In this document: piece by piece, positions 3,766-11,555 of the stretch | How the letters are laid out: every line of letters begins with the position of its first letter | Position numbering within the stretch: the first letter of the stretch is position 1 | Assembly: GCA_030052355.1 (NCBI GenBank) | Contig: JASIGS010000542.1 | Coordinates: 1-11,555, forward strand | From: Streptosporangiaceae bacterium | GTDB taxonomy: Bacteria; Actinomycetota; Actinomycetes; Streptosporangiales; Streptosporangiaceae | Length of the DNA: 11,555 nucleotides | Direction of reading: 5' to 3' | Position numbers and translations under genes: made by a program | Notes under the pieces: model-generated | Databases searched by the model: none | The model's input: only the letters and a program-made list of their open reading frames with translations | Told to the model about the DNA's origin: nothing

Positions 3766-5016
3766 ATGCAGGACGACGTGTTCCACGTGCTGTGGGTGTG
3801 CGGCCCCGCGGGAGTTGGCAAGTCGACTGTTTCCTGGCAGTTGTTTACTGAGCTAGCGGACGCGGGAGTCCGGGTGGCCTTTGCCGACACCGATCAGCTG
3901 GGCATGTGCCATCCGGCAGGTGACGACGCTCGGGGCCGGCAGCGGGTCAAACTGGCGAACATCGCTGCGATGATTCCCAACTACCGAGCGGCCGGGGCGC
4001 AGTACGCGATCATCAACGGGGTTATCGACCCGTCAGCCGGCCTGCCAGCACGATCGCTGCCGGGATCGGTGGTGACGATCTGCCGACTGCGCGCCAGCCC
4101 CGAAGAAGTCGAGCGGCGCTTCCTTGCCAGGAGCGACGAGCCGGGCGACGTAACGGGCTGGCTCAGCGAGGTCAGGGAGGAAGCAGTCGGCTTCGATCAC
4201 AGCAGCTTTGCCGATGCTTGCGTGGACACGACCGGCGTGGCACCGGCCGATGTGGCCGCGCTGGTGCGGGATGCGTGCAAGGCCTGGCCGGGTTTCAGCG
4301 CGGACCGAGCCGCGGACCACGCTGCCGACCGCGCCGCAGCACGGACTCAGCGCAGCGATCCGGCCGGGACCGGGGCTGACGGAACGGGCGGACCAGGAGC
4401 CGGGGCCGATGGCGCCGGGGCCCACGGGGACGTCATGCTGATCGCAGGTCCGACCGGAGTGGGCAAGTCGACGATCGGCTTCCGGGTCTACGTCAACCTC
4501 GTAACAGGCCAGCTCGGCGCTGGTTACGTTGACCTGGAGCAAGTCGGCTTCATAAAGCCGGCTCCCGCCGACGCCCTGCAAGTCCATCGTCTCAGGGCTC
4601 GCAACCTCGCGGCGATCTGGCAGAACTACCGTGCTGAGGGAGCGACCCACCTCGTCGCGACGGGGCCGGTCGAGGACCGGGCCGCCTTGCAGGTGTACGC
4701 GGACGAGATGCCGGCAGCCACGGTCAGGCTGTGCCGGCTGCGTGCCGGCCACGATCAGCTGAGCCAGCGGATCGCGTCGCGCGGAGCGGGCGGCAGCTGG
4801 CCGCAGCCGGGAGATCCGCTGCGCGGACAGCCAGCCGACGTGTTGCGGGCAGCCGCGACGCGGGCCGCGCTAGAGGCTGCTGCCCTCGACCGCTCCGGCA
4901 CCGACGGGCTGGTTATCGACACCGACAGGCTGGCCGCAGACGAAACGGCAGACCTGATCGCGCGAGCCGCCGGCTGGCCCGGCCAGCAGAAGGTCCTTCC
5001 GGCCGTAGATACATAA
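3766..5016 (+). CDS. Tandem P-loop NTPase with two kinase-like modules
   Basis: A 416-aa protein containing two copies of a small P-loop NTPase/kinase-like module. Walker A is GPAGVGKST at 13-21 in the first copy and GPTGVGKST at 228-236 in the second. Each copy continues with an acidic strand (DTDQLG at 41-46; DLEQVG at 256-261), an N-x-A-A-x-x-x-N-Y-R-A-x-G-A helix, and a hydrophobic strand ending in CRLRA, so the halves clearly arose by duplication. They are joined by a low-complexity linker at about 178-221 rich in Ala, Gly and Asp. The fold resembles shikimate/gluconate/CPT-type small-molecule kinases, but substrate and activity are unknown. No transmembrane or signal segment is visible. 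A weak AGGT precedes ATG 3766. The gene is 65 bp after the phosphotransferase on the same strand and ends at a hairpin-rich convergent region. Confidence 0.75.
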   Translation: MQDDVFHVLWVCGPAGVGKSTVSWQLFTELADAGVRVAFADTDQLGMCHPAGDDARGRQRVKLANIAAMIPNYRAAGAQYAIINGVIDPSAGLPARSLPGSVVTICRLRASPEEVERRFLARSDEPGDVTGWLSEVREEAVGFDHSSFADACVDTTGVAPADVAALVRDACKAWPGFSADRAADHAADRAAARTQRSDPAGTGADGTGGPGAGADGAGAHGDVMLIAGPTGVGKSTIGFRVYVNLVTGQLGAGYVDLEQVGFIKPAPADALQVHRLRARNLAAIWQNYRAEGATHLVATGPVEDRAALQVYADEMPAATVRLCRLRAGHDQLSQRIASRGAGGSWPQPGDPLRGQPADVLRAAATRAALEAAALDRSGTDGLVIDTDRLAADETADLIARAAGWPGQQKVLPAVDT

Positions 5017-5197: not shown

Positions 5198-6514
5198 TTA
5201 CCGGACCACCACGCGCCGTTCTGCGAGGTGAGCCATGACCGCCTGGTTGGCTTCCCAGCCATCGGGAAACTTGGCCGGGACGTTCAGGTGGACAGGCTCG
5301 GTGGACGGGTACGCGTCGAGCAGTTCGGGGATGCCGGCCCGCGCCACGACGATGCAGGCGTGCCGGTGCCGCGAGGTGAGCACGCAGAGCCGGCCGGCTT
5401 CGAGGTGGAACGCGGTCGCGTCGTGACGGCCGGACAGCGGATGCAGCACGATCACGACGTCGAACTCCCGGCCCTGCAGGCGGTTGGCCGTATCGACTGC
5501 TATCCCCGCCAGCGCAGGACCGAGCATGGCGCGGATCGCCTTCGCCTGGTCGCGGTGCGCCGTGCCGATCGCGACCCGGTCAGCGGTGACCGGCCTGCCG
5601 TACGGCGCGACCTCGGAGTAAGCGACGCAGCCTCGCTGCAGCACGCGCTCGGCGATAGCCGCGCACGCCAGCACGGCCTCGCTGTCGGTGCGCACGGTGT
5701 GCCGGGCGGGAAGCTCGAAAAGCGCCCAGCCGGTCTGCGCCGCGACCGACAGCGCCTCGTCGACCGGCTCATAGCCGAGCGCCGCGGTGCTGAATTCGAG
5801 CCGCCGCTCGCCCGGCCTGGTCCCGGCCACGAAGCCGTCGAACGGGTAGAACGCTTCGGCTACGACCGGCACGGCCGGGGGCGGCAGCCGCCAGGACACC
5901 GGGAGCTTGCGCACCGGGATGTCGTCGTTGTGCCGCAGCATGACCTCGACCGCGCTCTGCATCGGGTCCCAGGTCAGCCCCGCCCATCTGTCGATGTCGA
6001 CGGTCGAGAACGGGTCGAGCTGGCCAGGATCGCCGACGAACAGCCCGCGCTCGAACCGGCCCCCGATGCGCAGCAGCATGTCCGAGCGCATCTGGTATGC
6101 CTCGTCAAGGACGGCCCACGGCCACAACCCATCCCGCAGCGTCGCCCACTTGGCCGCGGTGGCGACCACGACCTGGCAGCCGGCCAGGTCGCGCACGTCC
6201 GACGACACGGTGAGGTTGGCGTTGCGGCGCACCCGCGCCGACGGCAGGTAGCCCTGGCCGGACAGCCGCCCGACGGGCATGCCGGGCGCCGAGCTGGCCA
6301 GCCGGTCGGCCAGGTCGTCGACCTGCTCGTTGGTCTGCGCGACCACCATGACCGGTTCCCCGGCGCCGGCGAGTGCGAGCGCCGCGCGGACCACGAGCGC
6401 GGACTTCCCGGCGCCGGGCGGCGAGTCGACAACGACCGCCCGGTGACCCGCGTCCAGGTCTGCGAGCACCGAGTCGGCGGCGCTGGCAGCCAGCTCGGCC
6501 GCCCCGATCGTCAC
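5198..6514 (-). CDS. Compact superfamily 1 (UPF1/Dna2-type) helicase
   Basis: A 438-aa ATP-dependent nucleic acid translocase or helicase. Motifs in order: Walker A SPPGAGKS at 31-38 (K37); motif Ia VVAQTNEQ; Walker B LDEA with D137 and E138; motif III GDPGQLDPF at 161-169; motif IV-like SWRLP with R209; motif V TANRLQGREFD from 342; motif VI TSRHRHACIVV from 380. This set and the QGREFD signature point to the UPF1/Dna2/Senataxin branch of SF1. It is short for the branch, with little room for 1B/1C insertions, so it may need partners. Of two in-frame GTG codons (6520 and 6514) I chose 6514: GAGGAG lies 5 nt upstream and the codon forms a GTGA overlap with the preceding stop. It is the last gene of a four-gene operon. 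Helicase activity and polarity are inferred from motifs only. Confidence 0.88.
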   Translation of the reverse strand: MTIGAAELAASAADSVLADLDAGHRAVVVDSPPGAGKSALVVRAALALAGAGEPVMVVAQTNEQVDDLADRLASSAPGMPVGRLSGQGYLPSARVRRNANLTVSSDVRDLAGCQVVVATAAKWATLRDGLWPWAVLDEAYQMRSDMLLRIGGRFERGLFVGDPGQLDPFSTVDIDRWAGLTWDPMQSAVEVMLRHNDDIPVRKLPVSWRLPPPAVPVVAEAFYPFDGFVAGTRPGERRLEFSTAALGYEPVDEALSVAAQTGWALFELPARHTVRTDSEAVLACAAIAERVLQRGCVAYSEVAPYGRPVTADRVAIGTAHRDQAKAIRAMLGPALAGIAVDTANRLQGREFDVVIVLHPLSGRHDATAFHLEAGRLCVLTSRHRHACIVVARAGIPELLDAYPSTEPVHLNVPAKFPDGWEANQAVMAHLAERRVVVR

Positions 6515-8037
6515 GACCACTCCTCGACCGCGTCCTCGGGGGCCGCGGCGGAGCCGGAGCCGTCGGGCACGCCGTCCCGCTGGTCAGCCGCATACGGGAC
6601 CGGCGGGCCGCCGTGCGTCCACGGGGTTTCCTCGACGGCGGGGAACTCATCCACCGGCTGATAGCCGCCGGTCAGCACGGAGTAGCACAGCCAGTCGCCG
6701 ACCGCGGGGACGCTGCCCGGAGTGGCGGCCAGGCCCCGGCCCATGCCGCCGGACAACTCGAGCACGACGCGGACCGGCCGGCCCGGTTGTGCGACGACGC
6801 CGACGATCCTGCCTTGCTGCGCCGGGCGGGCCGGCGACACGACCGTCTCGCCGTCGCCGACCAGCACCGGGTCGGCCGTCTCGACCGTGATCCACGGCCG
6901 CAGCACGCGGCGCTTGCCGTTGCCATTCGCGAGCCGATCAGGCTCCGCCTCGACGACCTGACCCGCGAACGCCTCTCCCGACAGCCGGTACTCGGCCATG
7001 GCGAGCGGGTCGTCGAACGCGCGCTGCGCTGCGCAGTTCGCCTGCGCGCGTTCCAGCCAGTTGAGCCGCCGGGCCGCTGCGACCGCCTGGTCGCGGCGCG
7101 GCTGCGGTGCCCCGCCGTCGCGCAGGTAGTTCCCGAAGGCGGTGAACGCATCCTTGTCGGCGTCCCAGCGCTGCGCGACGTGCTGCCCGGCCGGCAGCTC
7201 GCGCAGCAACTCCACGGCTCGCCACATGAGCTGCCAGGTGGGCATCAGCTGACCGGACAGCGCGTCCCGCAGTGCCTCTTCCGCGCGCCGGGCGGCTGCC
7301 CTGGAGTCAGCCTGTGCGCACGCTTCGATCAGCGGGTACAGCACCTCGTTGTCGAACGTCGGATCCGTGGCCGGCCCGGCCGGAGGCCACAGCAGCGGGT
7401 CCTCGGCGGCAGCGGCAGCCTCCGGCCCGGTCATGCCGTCTGGCGGGTCGATCCAGCCCATCAGCGCGGCCAGGTTCTGGTCCTCGATGTCGCTCTGCCC
7501 GCTGGCCCAGTGCTGCGACAGCGCCCCGGTTGCCGCGAGCATCAGGCATGAACCCGGATGCTCGGTTCGCTCGGCGAAGAACGACAGCCACCGGCCGAGC
7601 AGCGGGACGACCGGAGCCACGGCGAACTCGCCGTCGGTCCGGCGGAACCTGGTAGACCGGCCGAGCAGGCGGACGAACCCGATGCTCGCCTGGCCGGGTA
7701 CCAGAAGCTGCGGCGCGTCGGTGCTGCGGACTCGGCCGGACACCTCCTCGACCGAGCCGGAGAAGCCCGTCACGTATCGCACGACGACCCGGCCGAGCTC
7801 GGCCGCGAACGCGAACCGCTGGTCCCGGTTGCGAGGCTGGCTCACCACCAGCAGCCTGGGCGCGTCCTGCCGGTCGCCCACCACGGCGGCGAGCGGTGCG
7901 CACGCCTCGCCGGCCAGGCCGAGCGGCACGAGTACCAGCGGGCGGTCGCTGACATGCACGTGAGCGACCCCGGCGAGCGGCTGCGCCACCCCGGCCGACC
8001 TGGCCTGCACCCGGGCCAGCGCGGTGAGCGTGCTCAC
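6511..8037 (-). CDS. Unknown 508-aa protein of the nuclease-helicase operon
   Basis: I do not recognise a family with a known function. The protein starts at GTG 8037, overlapping the nuclease stop in a GTGA, and its own stop overlaps the helicase start in another GTGA, so its production is tightly coupled to both enzymes. The first ~150 residues look like an alternating beta/alpha domain with hydrophobic strands such as PLVLVPLGLAG and RLLVVSQPRNRDQRF. The middle (about 180-360) is mainly helical with many Trp and Arg residues. Residues about 370-470 are strand-rich (VLVGDG, GRIVGVVAQ, VRVVLELSGG) and could be a small beta-barrel, and the last ~40 residues are acidic and Pro/Gly-rich. I see no Walker, nuclease, zinc or membrane motif. 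A scaffold or nucleic-acid-binding subunit would fit, but this is inference. Confidence 0.82.
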   Translation of the reverse strand: MSTLTALARVQARSAGVAQPLAGVAHVHVSDRPLVLVPLGLAGEACAPLAAVVGDRQDAPRLLVVSQPRNRDQRFAFAAELGRVVVRYVTGFSGSVEEVSGRVRSTDAPQLLVPGQASIGFVRLLGRSTRFRRTDGEFAVAPVVPLLGRWLSFFAERTEHPGSCLMLAATGALSQHWASGQSDIEDQNLAALMGWIDPPDGMTGPEAAAAAEDPLLWPPAGPATDPTFDNEVLYPLIEACAQADSRAAARRAEEALRDALSGQLMPTWQLMWRAVELLRELPAGQHVAQRWDADKDAFTAFGNYLRDGGAPQPRRDQAVAAARRLNWLERAQANCAAQRAFDDPLAMAEYRLSGEAFAGQVVEAEPDRLANGNGKRRVLRPWITVETADPVLVGDGETVVSPARPAQQGRIVGVVAQPGRPVRVVLELSGGMGRGLAATPGSVPAVGDWLCYSVLTGGYQPVDEFPAVEETPWTHGGPPVPYAADQRDGVPDGSGSAAAPEDAVEEWS

Positions 8038-9161
8038 GCGGTCTGCCCCAGGGACTCATCGCGCAGCCGCGAGGCCGCGCGCAGCAGCGTGGCCGCATCG
8101 GCCTCGTCCGGTCCTGGCTCCAGCTCGCCGGTTGCCAGCCGCAGCGCAGTCGGCACGTACTCGATGCCGCCGAGGTCTTCTCGCACCGCGCGCCCGAGTG
8201 CGGCAGTCGTGGCGGCCGACTCGTTCCTGCAAAAGCGGCACATCTCGCAAGTCGCGAGGCACTCAGGCGAATACCTGGCAGGGACGGCACGCAGCGCGTC
8301 CGCCAGTTCCCCGGCCGGCCGGCGCGCGACGCCGCCGGAGTCGACCGCCAGATCGAAGCTCAGGTCGACGCCGAGATCGCGGACCAGGTCCGCGGTCAGC
8401 TCGAGCCTGGACAGCTGGCGGCGCAGCACGGTGAGCTGCTTGCGCACATCCAGGACGGAGGCGACCGGCCGGTTGGAGAAATTCTCCGGGCAGACCAGCA
8501 CGACATCGTCGGCGACCAGACCGGGGCCGCTCGCGGCGCCGGCCAGCAGGTCGCGCAGGGCCAGCACGTACACCGCGGACTGGATCGCGGCCGCGGCGAC
8601 CTTGTCAGCGTCGGCCTGCCCGTCGATGACGGCGAAGGACTTGATCTCGACCACGCGGAACTGGCCGCCCAGCCGGAACGCGATCAGGTCCGGCTCCAGG
8701 TAGGCGAACCGGCCGCCGACGGGCAGCCGCAGCAGCGGGTGGTCGAACAGCGTGCCCGCGTCCGGGCCGGACTGCGCCGAGCGGGTCAGCAGCTGCCTGG
8801 TCCTGGCGTGCCGCACGTCCAGGGCGACGTTGCCGCCGACCTCCTCGAGGTCGTCGTAGGAGACCTCGGGGATGGGCAGGCCGAGCTGCTCGCGCAGCAG
8901 CCGCAGCAGCTCAGCGCAGCCGTTGGCCTTGACCTGCGCCTCAAACGCCCTGCCGCGCGTGATCGCGAACTGCGACTGGCCGAACGGCGCGGGGAAGCCG
9001 ACGTGCGCCGCGAGCCGCGGCTTGTCGACGCCCGCCGCGTCCAGGATTGCCCGCCGGGCGCAGCCTGGATTGGTGGTCAGCGCGGCGATCGTGCGCGCGT
9101 TGTGCGGCCTGGCGGGCAGCGAGCCCCGGATCTGGGCGAGCCGCTCCTCGGTGTCGTCCAC
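8034..9161 (-). CDS. RecB/Cas4-like PD-(D/E)XK nuclease with probable Fe-S cluster
   Basis: A 375-aa predicted DNA nuclease. The catalytic core is visible as EPD with D158, then VVEIKSF with E172 and K174, then QSAVYVLAL with Q194 and Y198, the D...E-x-K...Q-x3-Y order of RecB-family nucleases. An upstream RGRAFE (E74) may be the first helix motif. Cysteines are placed as in the Fe-S nucleases Cas4, AddB and Dna2: a lone C34 in NPGCARR before the core, and a C-terminal group C301, C305, C308, C311 that could complete a 4Fe-4S cluster. The start is GTG, 16 nt after the upstream stop, with AGGGGG just before it. The stop overlaps the next gene in a GTGA. No cas1/cas2 or CRISPR repeats are nearby, so a CRISPR adaptation role is not supported; the partner is more likely the SF1 helicase. 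Cluster binding is inferred from spacing only. Confidence 0.85.
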   Translation of the reverse strand: MDDTEERLAQIRGSLPARPHNARTIAALTTNPGCARRAILDAAGVDKPRLAAHVGFPAPFGQSQFAITRGRAFEAQVKANGCAELLRLLREQLGLPIPEVSYDDLEEVGGNVALDVRHARTRQLLTRSAQSGPDAGTLFDHPLLRLPVGGRFAYLEPDLIAFRLGGQFRVVEIKSFAVIDGQADADKVAAAAIQSAVYVLALRDLLAGAASGPGLVADDVVLVCPENFSNRPVASVLDVRKQLTVLRRQLSRLELTADLVRDLGVDLSFDLAVDSGGVARRPAGELADALRAVPARYSPECLATCEMCRFCRNESAATTAALGRAVREDLGGIEYVPTALRLATGELEPGPDEADAATLLRAASRLRDESLGQTA

Positions 9162-9177
9162 TCCCCCTGACCTTCGG

Positions 9178-9972
9178 TTAGGCCCCGTCGACGGAACGAG
9201 CCGTCAGCCGCAGGCGGCTGCCGAAAAGCTGGCCGGCGTCGTCTAGCTGAGCGCGAGCCCGGGTCGCGGCCGCCCGCCGGTGCACGGCGTCCGCGTCCCT
9301 GTGGACTTCCAGCTCGGCCTCCGCCGCCTGGCTGACCAGCTGCGGGTCGGCGTTCCTGGCACCCGGCTGGGCACCTGGGACGTTGACAGCGAACCGCCAC
9401 AGCAGCCTGCGCGCATCAGCGCCAGGACTCCGGACGCGGCGGACGCCGTCGGCCACGGCGATCGCCGCCAACAGGTAATCGACGCGCGGGCTCAGCGGTC
9501 CGATTACACGCTGCTCGAGCGGCCAGGTGGAAACCGCCAGCAGGCCGCGGGCCGGCCCGAGCAGGTCGGTGGTCAGCGCCGAGCACAGGTAGTACGCGCG
9601 TGCGTACGGAGCAGACCGGAACGAGCGCTCCTCGTCCCGGCGCAGGCTGGTCAGCCTGGCGGCGACCAGCGGCCCGCCGAAGAACGCCTCATGCACGGAC
9701 ACGATCAGCCGTGGCGCAGCGGGCACGCCGATCAGGGTGAGCGCCTGGTGCACCTGCTCGCGGATGGGCAGCAGCTGCCCGTCCTGCTCCCGCTCGCCGC
9801 TGCCGGGCTCGCCTTCCAGCCTGGCGACGGCTTCGTCCCACTCGCGCTCGGCAGTCCGCAACTCGGCCCGCAGCTGGCGGCTCCGCGGCCGGTCGCCGGC
9901 CGCGACGGCGCGCCGGACCGCCGTGCGCAGCTCATCGATGCGGCGCTCCAGGATGTCGGCTGGCGTGCTCAC
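9178..9972 (-). CDS. Unknown coiled-coil protein, first gene of the nuclease-helicase operon
   Basis: A 264-aa protein of unrecognised family. Residues about 7-53 are rich in Glu, Arg, Leu and Ala with heptad-like spacing (ILERRIDELR..., LRAELRTAEREW), a likely coiled coil or long helical hairpin. A variable Gly/Glu/Gln segment follows, then from about residue 68 to 180 a compact helical domain containing SVHEAFFGG and SLRRDEERSF, which could be winged-helix-like, though this is only an impression. The C-terminus is helical and charged. I chose GTG 9972 over an upstream in-frame ATG at 10068: the longer frame would overlap the XRE gene, and a TAGGCT -10 box lies 7 nt before GTG 9972, indicating a leaderless transcript. 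The nuclease begins 16 nt downstream. Nothing indicates membrane location or enzyme activity. Confidence 0.78.
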   Translation of the reverse strand: MSTPADILERRIDELRTAVRRAVAAGDRPRSRQLRAELRTAEREWDEAVARLEGEPGSGEREQDGQLLPIREQVHQALTLIGVPAAPRLIVSVHEAFFGGPLVAARLTSLRRDEERSFRSAPYARAYYLCSALTTDLLGPARGLLAVSTWPLEQRVIGPLSPRVDYLLAAIAVADGVRRVRSPGADARRLLWRFAVNVPGAQPGARNADPQLVSQAAEAELEVHRDADAVHRRAAATRARAQLDDAGQLFGSRLRLTARSVDGA

Positions 9973-10051: not shown

Positions 10052-10255
10052 TCAGCGAGCCTGCGCATCGTTCGCCGAGTACTGGAAGACCTCCTCGAGC
10101 GGCACGCCGAACACCGACGCGATCTGAAATGCCATCTCCAGGGAGGGCGAGTAGCGCCCCTGCTCGATCGCGATGATCGTCTGCCGGGTCACGCCGATGC
10201 GCTCCGCTAGTTGCGCCTGGGTCATCTCGCCGCGGGCGAACCGCAGCGCGCGCAT
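10052..10255 (-). CDS. Small XRE-family transcriptional regulator
   Basis: A 67-aa stand-alone helix-turn-helix protein of the Cro/C1 (XRE) type, resembling the small YozG-like regulators. The fold runs from RALRFARGEMTQAQLAERIG through the recognition helix TRQTIIAIEQGRY (about 23-35) to LEMAFQIASVFGVPLEEVF, nearly the whole consensus of this subfamily. I chose ATG 10255. An upstream in-frame ATG at 10348 would add 31 residues and overlap the preceding gene by 55 bp, and the position where relatives usually start carries GTC, not GTG. Shine-Dalgarno support for 10255 is weak (AGGG about 11 nt upstream). It follows the membrane protein gene by 38 bp on the same strand, and two matching palindromes lie on their shared promoter, so it most likely represses its own operon as a dimer. 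No sensor domain is present. Confidence 0.85.
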   Translation of the reverse strand: MRALRFARGEMTQAQLAERIGVTRQTIIAIEQGRYSPSLEMAFQIASVFGVPLEEVFQYSANDAQAR

Positions 10256-10293
10256 CGAGTTCGTGACCCTCGTCTGCTTGCCTGCGAGGATGG

Positions 10294-10707
10294 CTACAGC
10301 CCTCGCCGGTAGCAGCTGATCTTCACGATGGACCCGCCGACCGCCCACAGCACGAACCCGAGGTAGATGACGTTGGCGATCCAGAAGTAGTCCCAGCGGG
10401 CCAGCGCCATGAAGAAGCCCGCGGCCGCACCGGCCACGACGAACCAGCGGCTCACGTACTCGCCGAACCGGTAGATCTCCTTGTCCCTGGCGTCGCTCCG
10501 GCGGTCCTCGGGCCCGGTCGTGGACAGCGTCCGGCCGACTGTCGCGGTGAGGCTTGCTGCGCAGGCGGTCCAGAAGAGCACCCAGCCGTAGGACACGTGC
10601 GCGACCGGCGTGCTCGCCAGCCGGCCGGCGATGATCGCCAGGTAGACCACATACGCGGCCGCGCTGGTCACCAGGTACACCCAGGTCCGTCTCTCGTCGT
10701 ACGACAT
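10294..10707 (-). CDS. Four-TM membrane protein paired with XRE regulator
   Basis: A 137-aa integral membrane protein with no recognised enzymatic motif. Hydrophobic segments lie at about 9-28, 38-58, 88-104 and 107-128. A highly charged loop between TM2 and TM3 contains GPEDRRSDARDKEIYRFGEY, and the protein ends in a basic YRRGL tail. Membrane proteins of this size with a D-x-R-x-x-x-I loop and an adjacent small XRE regulator form a common bacterial pair of unknown function. I chose ATG 10707 (MSYDERRTW) because upstream in-frame ATGs at 10749 and 10743 fall inside or before the predicted transcription start, and ATG 10725 lies inside the downstream palindrome. GAGGG just before 10707 could act as a close Shine-Dalgarno. 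It is the first gene of the module, and its level is probably set by the downstream XRE protein. Confidence 0.78.
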   Translation of the reverse strand: MSYDERRTWVYLVTSAAAYVVYLAIIAGRLASTPVAHVSYGWVLFWTACAASLTATVGRTLSTTGPEDRRSDARDKEIYRFGEYVSRWFVVAGAAAGFFMALARWDYFWIANVIYLGFVLWAVGGSIVKISCYRRGL

Positions 10708-10723
10708 CGCCCTCACACCCAAC

Positions 10724-10743
10724 ATGTCAAGAATGTTTGACAT
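10724..10743. promoter_or_regulatory. Palindromic operator, site 2 (at transcription start)
   Basis: ATGTCAA at 10724-10730 and TTGACAT at 10737-10743 form a perfect 7-bp inverted repeat with a 6-nt spacer. The site covers the predicted transcription start (near 10742) of the membrane protein/XRE transcript. It shares its architecture and left half exactly with the site at 10771-10790. Confidence 0.65.
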
Positions 10744-10748
10744 CACCA

Positions 10749-10777
10749 AATGTAAAGCAGAGCAGACGGCATGTCAA
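10749..10777 (-). promoter_or_regulatory. Sigma70-type promoter of membrane protein/XRE operon
   Basis: Read on the minus strand, a perfect -35 TTGACA (10777-10772) and a -10 TACATT (10754-10749) are separated by 17 nt. The predicted start is near 10742, giving a leader of about 35 nt to ATG 10707. This AT-rich stretch stands out from its GC-rich surroundings. The -35 is part of one palindrome and the start region is covered by the other. The 304-bp gap 10708-11011 holds this promoter, both operators, a palindromic repeat element and the -10 box of the divergent polymerase gene. Confidence 0.7.
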
Positions 10778-10896: not shown

Positions 10897-10999
10897 GATG
10901 ACGCGGACTAAACGGATCTTTATCGCTATTAGGGCAGGACCGGGCTCCCTGCGCAACGGCCGTGGTCGGCGGCTCGGGCGCGGCGAACCGGGACCGGGT

Positions 11000-11005
11000 T
11001 ATCGT
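11000..11005 (+). promoter_or_regulatory. -10 box, leaderless start of the polymerase gene
   Basis: TATCGT fits TAnnnT and ends 6 nt before ATG 11012, so the seventh base after it, the usual +1, is the A of the start codon. No Shine-Dalgarno is visible, in line with a leaderless mRNA. No -35 could be recognised. Confidence 0.4.
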
Positions 11006-11011
11006 GAGCCC

Positions 11012-11555
11012 ATGCCCGAGCGCAGGGAGGTCATCGAGGTCGGCGGCCGGGACGTGACGATCACGAACCCGGACAAGGTGTACTTCCCGCGGACCGGGCA
11101 CACCAAGATGGACCTGGTCCGCTACTACCTCAGCGTCGCGGACGGCGCGCTGCGCGGGGTAAGAGACCGGCCCATGGTGCTCAAGCGGTTCGTGCACGGC
11201 GCGGACGGCGAGGCGTTCTTCCAGAAGCGGGCCCCGTCGTCGCGGCCGGACTGGCTGCAGACCGTCATTCTCAGCTTCCCATCCGGCCGGACCGCCGAAG
11301 AACTCGTCGTGACCGACGCGGCCGGACTCGCCTGGGTGGTGAACCTCGGCTGCATCGACCTGAACCCGCACCCGATCAGGGCCGCGGACCTCGACCACCC
11401 CGACGAGCTGCGCGTGGACCTGGACCCCATTCCCGGCGTCGAGTGGGCACAGATAGTGAGCGTCGCCCTGGTCGCACGCGAGGTGCTGGCTGACTTCGGG
11501 CTCACCGGCTGGCCGAAGACCTCGGGGTCGCGCGGCATGCACGTCTACAGCCGGA
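11012..11555 (+). CDS. LigD-family primase-polymerase domain protein (N-terminal part)
   Basis: The first 181 codons of a gene that runs off the right edge. It encodes the archaeo-eukaryotic-primase-type polymerase domain of bacterial non-homologous end joining, which adds ribo- or deoxynucleotides at DNA ends. Visible family features are NPDKVYFP at 19-26, the motif around MVLKRF at 55-60, NLGCIDLNPHP at 111-121, the metal-binding DLD with D136 and D138 followed by P139, and TSGSRGMHVY from 170. This order matches the PolDom of LigD and of stand-alone actinobacterial PolD proteins. The gene may be a stand-alone polymerase (about 300-350 aa) or the start of a longer LigD; the window cannot decide. 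ATG 11012 is preferred, with a TATCGT box 6 nt upstream. It is divergent from the XRE/membrane module. No ku gene is within view. Confidence 0.86.
   Translation, partial: MPERREVIEVGGRDVTITNPDKVYFPRTGHTKMDLVRYYLSVADGALRGVRDRPMVLKRFVHGADGEAFFQKRAPSSRPDWLQTVILSFPSGRTAEELVVTDAAGLAWVVNLGCIDLNPHPIRAADLDHPDELRVDLDPIPGVEWAQIVSVALVAREVLADFGLTGWPKTSGSRGMHVYSR

Follow-up and report, generated by a model that had tools for sequence, protein, structure and literature searches.

A putative split DNA2/Bad-like end-processing enzyme encoded by neighbouring genes in actinobacteria

DNA2 carries a nuclease, a stalk and barrel and the 1A/2A motor in that order (PMC4716839). Bad likewise has, in one chain and in this order, an iron-sulphur (Fe-S) RecB nuclease, a central domain whose structure is unknown and a superfamily 1B (SF1B) motor; it is sporadic, and in Geobacilli it adjoins a type III methyltransferase, its authors proposing a restriction role (PMC7430649). 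Can such an enzyme also exist as separate genes? The window analysed here, the whole stretch of 11,555 nucleotides from the soil actinobacterium Streptosporangiaceae bacterium (GCA_030052355.1, contig JASIGS010000542.1), carries at 5198..9972 a module of four neighbouring minus-strand genes in the order A-B-C-D. A sequence-only reading had likened them to a split Dna2 and had the four proteins form one machine. The first idea gains support, and is sharpened by a predicted model in which C probably gives the barrel and stalk lacking in D. Of the second, the B-C-D unit is supported, and A did not turn up in the core-type genomes tested. On balance we lean towards B-C-D being a split DNA2/Bad-like end-processing enzyme that serves repair where it is a core trait and acts as a DNA-degrading defence arm in accessory loci. 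This reading draws on the conserved motifs of B, the profile matches of D, the C model, B-C fusions, the recovery of distant D genes, correlated distances and the neighbours. The features of the module are these:

9178..9972, minus strand: gene A, about 264 amino acids, optional subunit
9162..9177, minus strand: A/B gap of 16 nucleotides with a purine-rich ribosome-binding site inside
8034..9161, minus strand: gene B, 375 amino acids, predicted RecB-family nuclease with four cysteines of iron-staple type
9060-9062, minus strand: B cysteine C34, kept in 128/135 sequences, with a gap in the other 7
8568..8741, minus strand: B nuclease motifs H141, D158, E172-x-K174 and Q194-x3-Y198
8229..8261, minus strand: B cysteines C301, C305 and C311, kept in 135/135
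8034..8037, minus strand: B/C overlap GTGA, B stop and C start
6511..8037, minus strand: gene C, 508 amino acids
7105..7947, minus strand: C residues 31-311, RNase H-fold, exonuclease-like domain by model resemblance
6670..7104, minus strand: C residues 312-456, stalk and beta-barrel resembling IGHMBP2, SETX and Sen1
6511..6514, minus strand: C/D overlap GTGA, C stop and one D start
5198..6520, minus strand: gene D, 440 amino acids, SF1 helicase motor (1A/2A) without barrel
6401..6415, minus strand: D Walker A GAGKS, kept in 123-124/127, with a gap in 3

The residues of the RecB-family motifs are retained in 126-133 of 135 B sequences. These motifs, with four cysteines patterned as in PMC7430649, place B in the predicted Fe-S class and agree with the Fe-S RecB-like nuclease first proposed. 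Protein D, earlier called an SF1 helicase, has intact SF1 motifs and matches AAA_12 (PF13087, 1.6e-8) and AAA_11 (PF13086, 3.2e-7) in Pfam; UvrD_C_2 (0.0047) falls under its cut-off, and the weak NCBIfam matches are two helicase models far under theirs. Profile comparison with the PDB gave IGHMBP2 as the best match (4.1e-10) and also DNA2 (1.9e-8), which points to a UPF1-like SF1B motor.

Protein C had been described simply as an unknown. It does lack a family in Pfam, NCBIfam and PADLOC, but its predicted model (predicted local distance difference test, pLDDT, 88.7; predicted template-modelling score 0.85) likens it to an RNase H-fold followed by a stalk and barrel. The C-terminal half resembles the part of IGHMBP2, SETX and Sen1 that has no counterpart in D, and judging from the model C probably supplies the stalk and barrel that D is without. 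With these placed after the RNase H-fold, B, C and D would reproduce the DNA2 order. Is C itself a nuclease? The usual DxE of DEDD exonucleases is not in the first strand, where residues 34-41 are hydrophobic or non-acidic; E44 is present in 133/136 sequences, but outside a DxE motif, and an active exonuclease is doubted.

These folds also bear on a different proposal, an RNA or R-loop processing complex. Helicases of the UPF1/SETX/IGHMBP2 type and RNase H folds frequently act on RNA, IGHMBP2 leads the PDB matches of D, and the C barrel is like those of IGHMBP2, SETX and Sen1. The Fe-S RecB type of B, however, is known from DNA nucleases (PMC7430649), and SbcCD and Wadjet, found beside many copies, are described as acting on DNA; this proposal appears very improbable.

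Searches of A, B and C against Pfam, NCBIfam and PADLOC 2.0.0 returned 0 families each at E <= 1, the TIGR03491 model of NCBIfam being among those that B did not match, and Pfam found nothing relevant in four diverged and two other B or three diverged C sequences. PDB sequence searches with B and C gave no usable match; the best two (E 1.3e-10 and 2.5e-7) were designed proteins with no stretch passing alone and were given no weight. There was no relative of B among viral contigs or of C among phages (PHROGs lay outside the search). Profiles of B and C against the RecB-helicase proteins of L117 and L119, and of B against L118 and against the PDDEXK protein of L140, gave no result, although in one comparison the motifs were in register, at an E of only 0.22. 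The model of A (pLDDT 90.2) shows a helical hairpin, then a helix-helix-helix-strand-strand unit, which we read as winged-helix-like, then further helices; fold comparison of it gave no significant match.

Do the genes belong together? Genome contigs scanned with B yielded 94 relatives, and 80 loci were retained from these. By tblastn, C adjoins B in 80/80 and D is near in 76/80, the remaining four reaching a contig edge after C; A is near in 76/80, two of the remaining four beginning at a contig edge. In a later, larger set of 138 loci, all four genes are present near full length in 96. Without six duplicates (132 loci; starts from a crude gene caller), both genes of a detected pair share a strand in 100/100 cases for A-B, 129/129 for B-C and 121/123 for C-D, an arrangement that exceeds chance. 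Pairwise distances of A to D correlate at 0.92-0.97, against at most 0.27 in 500 permutations, a correlation that common descent of species alone would also lead one to expect. This neighbourhood survey was one of the checks proposed at the outset, when rare co-occurrence was named as telling against the idea; the genes co-occur widely.

Diverged relatives add to the association. B and C are fused into one protein in L201 and L202; among 40 database homologues of the fusion, 15 are 691-798 amino acids long at 97-99% coverage. Four loci (L123, L186, L187, L189) have B-C without a nearby D. In these and four previously unexamined genomes where D is distant from C, D was found in 8/8: in seven it shares the contig and strand of C at a distance of 28-63 kb, and in one it is on a different contig. 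In a diverged clade (L197-L200, L204), B has degenerate nuclease residues (K174R and Q194E in those read) and C and D remain; this B is possibly an inactive nuclease.

The module is unevenly distributed. The tallies that follow are minimum values, since scoring was limited to some first-look candidates: C is present in 14/396 genomes of a phylum sample, 125/200 of the family of Dactylosporangium roseum (G001, via L006), 65/65 of the genus Actinomadura (G005, via L014) and 141/150 of the genus of G028. The last is inferred to be Streptomyces, as six of 12 loci (L136, L143-L147) have 74-94% protein identity to a named Streptomyces plasmid. Its common form is B-C-D without A (nine loci seen). In 14 core-type genomes a profile search detected no A; its control was positive in 6/6 genomes known to carry A and in 0/4 core ones. 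The shared enzyme is thus B-C-D, and A is an add-on present with only some copies. The negative result in core-type genomes led to the rejection of A as an obligatory subunit.

For the neighbours, 130 loci (138 minus six duplicates and two short contigs) were placed in classes of our own: 71 core or diverged and the remaining 59 accessory. The 71 comprise 47 by genus name (Actinomadura, Spirillospora), nine without A and with shared neighbours, four B-C without nearby D and 11 diverged or displaced; L136-L147 were added to the loci since their genomes carry further copies. At least one sought marker lies within 9 kb of C in 40/59 accessory and 0/71 core/diverged loci (Fisher p 3e-19), a count biased by marker queries taken from accessory flanks, with loci that are not independent and a crude gene caller. 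Among accessory loci with 6 kb on both sides, 34/44 bear a marker.

SbcCD adjoins 18 of the 59 (the genes in L003 are fragments). Its genes diverge from A in Streptomyces and in the genus of G028; they stand downstream of D in Amycolatopsis, Crossiella, Nocardia, Kibdelosporangium, Paractinoplanes, Micromonospora and Virgisporangium. An SMC-like protein, c27, accompanies 10 loci, a large type IV-like restriction protein six, Wadjet I, Wadjet II and pPIWI-RE four each, GmrSD and HsdM three each, and Hma and RhuM two each; PglW, DruE, Cas3, AbiJ and a type III methyltransferase (beside the module in L191) occur at one locus each. The marker representatives were named by Pfam or PADLOC, except that the name HsdM is presumed. 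Wadjet I genes come after D in L002, L003 and L147 and before A in L022. The c27 gene belongs to a two-gene pair divergent from or near A in L005 (6136-8963) and nine other accessory loci: c27 is an SMC/RecF-like ATPase of about 800 amino acids (SMC_N 3.6e-14), with mad3 (4.5e-21) and LmuB (2.6e-18) as its best PADLOC matches, and its partner is a 125-amino-acid protein without a match.

How is this contrast between classes to be read? The enzyme might serve repair only, perhaps at linear-replicon ends, with the defence genes as company in variable chromosome arms. Near-universal presence in two genera and the absence of sought markers from every core/diverged locus agree with this, and so does the position of several copies. 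A linear Streptomyces plasmid carries C some 13 kb from its end; in G522, an 8.53-Mb contig has mirror-image copies about 22 kb from each end, and in G488 one copy falls within the first 10 kb; other copies, e.g. in G409, are internal. The same set, SbcCD with A-B-C-D, stands near either end of an 8.53-Mb contig (L137, L138), the arrangement expected of terminal inverted repeats. Since Streptomyces chromosome arms are enriched in Wadjet and Lamassu (PMC10482375), near-end copies may be mere company. A role in repair alone is nevertheless unlikely, given SbcCD beside accessory loci of eight named genera in two gene orders and many different defence systems beside others.

At the other extreme, the module might be a self-contained defence system in which A (or C) senses foreign DNA and B-D destroys it, the core forms being defensive too. 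The limitation of A to some forms and the defence neighbours of accessory loci are consistent with this, and in four loci other genes lie between C and D, of GmrSD type in L021 and L024 and of RhuM type in L018 and L181. Such a system would not be expected to be near-universal in two genera without the sought defence neighbours, or to be so frequently linked with SbcCD, which acts generally on DNA ends, and it seems less probable still than repair alone. Between repair and defence, the lineages point in different ways. Weighing against a defence arm, 19 accessory loci have no sought marker, among them the window itself, which extends only 3.5 kb beyond C on the side of A.

How might the split DNA2/Bad-like enzyme work? 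We infer that B would be the Fe-S nuclease, C an RNase H-like domain with stalk and barrel, and D a 5'-3' motor, the polarity being that of the SF1B class (PMC4716839). The complex would load onto a free or clipped DNA end, A aiding as an optional DNA-binding or loading subunit. D, with the barrel of C, would translocate 5'-3' along one strand and pass it to B, which would cut it. The core complex probably serves DNA repair. At accessory loci SbcCD (Mre11-Rad50), elsewhere perhaps the SMC-like ATPase, probably recognises or opens ends, and the complex probably degrades DNA that has been opened by Wadjet or by restriction enzymes, or through the entry of linear phage. Wadjet cuts circular plasmids and leaves linear DNA intact (PMC10586767), so that a partner destroying its linear product would be sensible; this is a proposal. 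More tentatively, and with considerable doubt, SbcCD, the three-gene DNA2 and the loader A could be a bacterial counterpart of MRN-DNA2, an end-destruction machine that completes Wadjet or other defences, maybe sparing telomeres: some copies lie near the ends of linear replicons, and with host ends capped there the machine could distinguish foreign ends from telomeres.

At the locus itself, the GTGA overlaps and the gap between A and B are all present as first described, and AGGGGGAG precedes the GTG of B. The C/D junction reads GTG GTC GTG ACG, and an alternative D start is possible at 6520. The open reading frame of A extends up to 10068, but in relatives the start is near the GTG at 9972, which supports the start assumed earlier and makes it the probable one. 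A gene for an XRE-type helix-turn-helix (HTH) protein (HTH_3, 2.4e-16), overlapping one for a small membrane-like protein (10052-10749), lies 79 nucleotides upstream of A on the same strand. Divergent from it on the plus strand (10898-11555) is a break-repair gene with a LigD primase-polymerase domain (PF21686, 6.6e-51). The protein at 3766-5016 has two P-loops (about residues 8-49 and 220-240) and is perhaps a tandem kinase-like ATPase.

New here are the stalk/barrel resemblance of C, the core versus accessory distribution and the defence neighbours of accessory loci. If the split-enzyme reading is true, a DNA2-type enzyme is spread over three genes with barrel and motor on separate chains, and its parts become separable for testing. 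The three family collections offer no model for A, B or C, even though the module is near-universal in two large genera of actinobacteria. The pairing with SbcCD and Wadjet opens to test the fate of plasmid DNA after Wadjet cleavage, and how bacteria with linear chromosomes spare their own ends.

How does the module compare with named systems? An existing name would have overturned the earlier claim of novelty; none turned up in PADLOC 2.0.0, Pfam or NCBIfam, and no description of a split module was recognised in the open-licence literature (titles and abstract openings, with few subscription papers covered), so that the claim stands within those sources. Wadjet was rejected as the identity of the module, with no Jet match (jetABCD) in six window proteins by PADLOC or in nine by Pfam. 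Mokosh MkoA is the best PADLOC match of D (5.3e-9 over about 85 residues), but only the end of the motor is matched in a 1112-residue model, and A, B and C have no match. Archaeal HerA-NurA is described as a helicase-nuclease that also acts with Mre11-Rad50; its nuclease and motor belong to other families. AddAB, RecBCD and AdnAB share end processing by a helicase and a nuclease, but the RecB helicase is UvrD-like, as are those of AddAB and AdnAB, whereas D is UPF1-like. These classical enzymes were rejected for want of SF1A character in D, in keeping with the lack of fit noted from the sequence. AddB too has an iron-staple nuclease (PMC7430649), and Streptomyces already possesses AdnAB (PMC5869714). 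The TIGR03491 (TM0106-type) RecB-like/helicase proteins, e.g. that of L117, have RNase_H_2 and then AAA_11/12 past the TIGR03491 region; D aligns to L117 at E 5e-14, but B and C do not, and these proteins are single chains.

DNA2 shares the order of parts but is a single chain with an oligonucleotide-binding (OB) domain and no RNase H-like part. The one-polypeptide layout of DNA2 and Bad is replaced by separate genes in the window, and only B and C are fused, in a diverged clade. Bad is the closest known enzyme. Its central domain is comparable to C in position, and its methyltransferase neighbour in Geobacilli (PMC7430649) is paralleled by L191. In place of the single chain of Bad there are three genes here, accompanied in some copies by A and in many by SbcCD or Wadjet.

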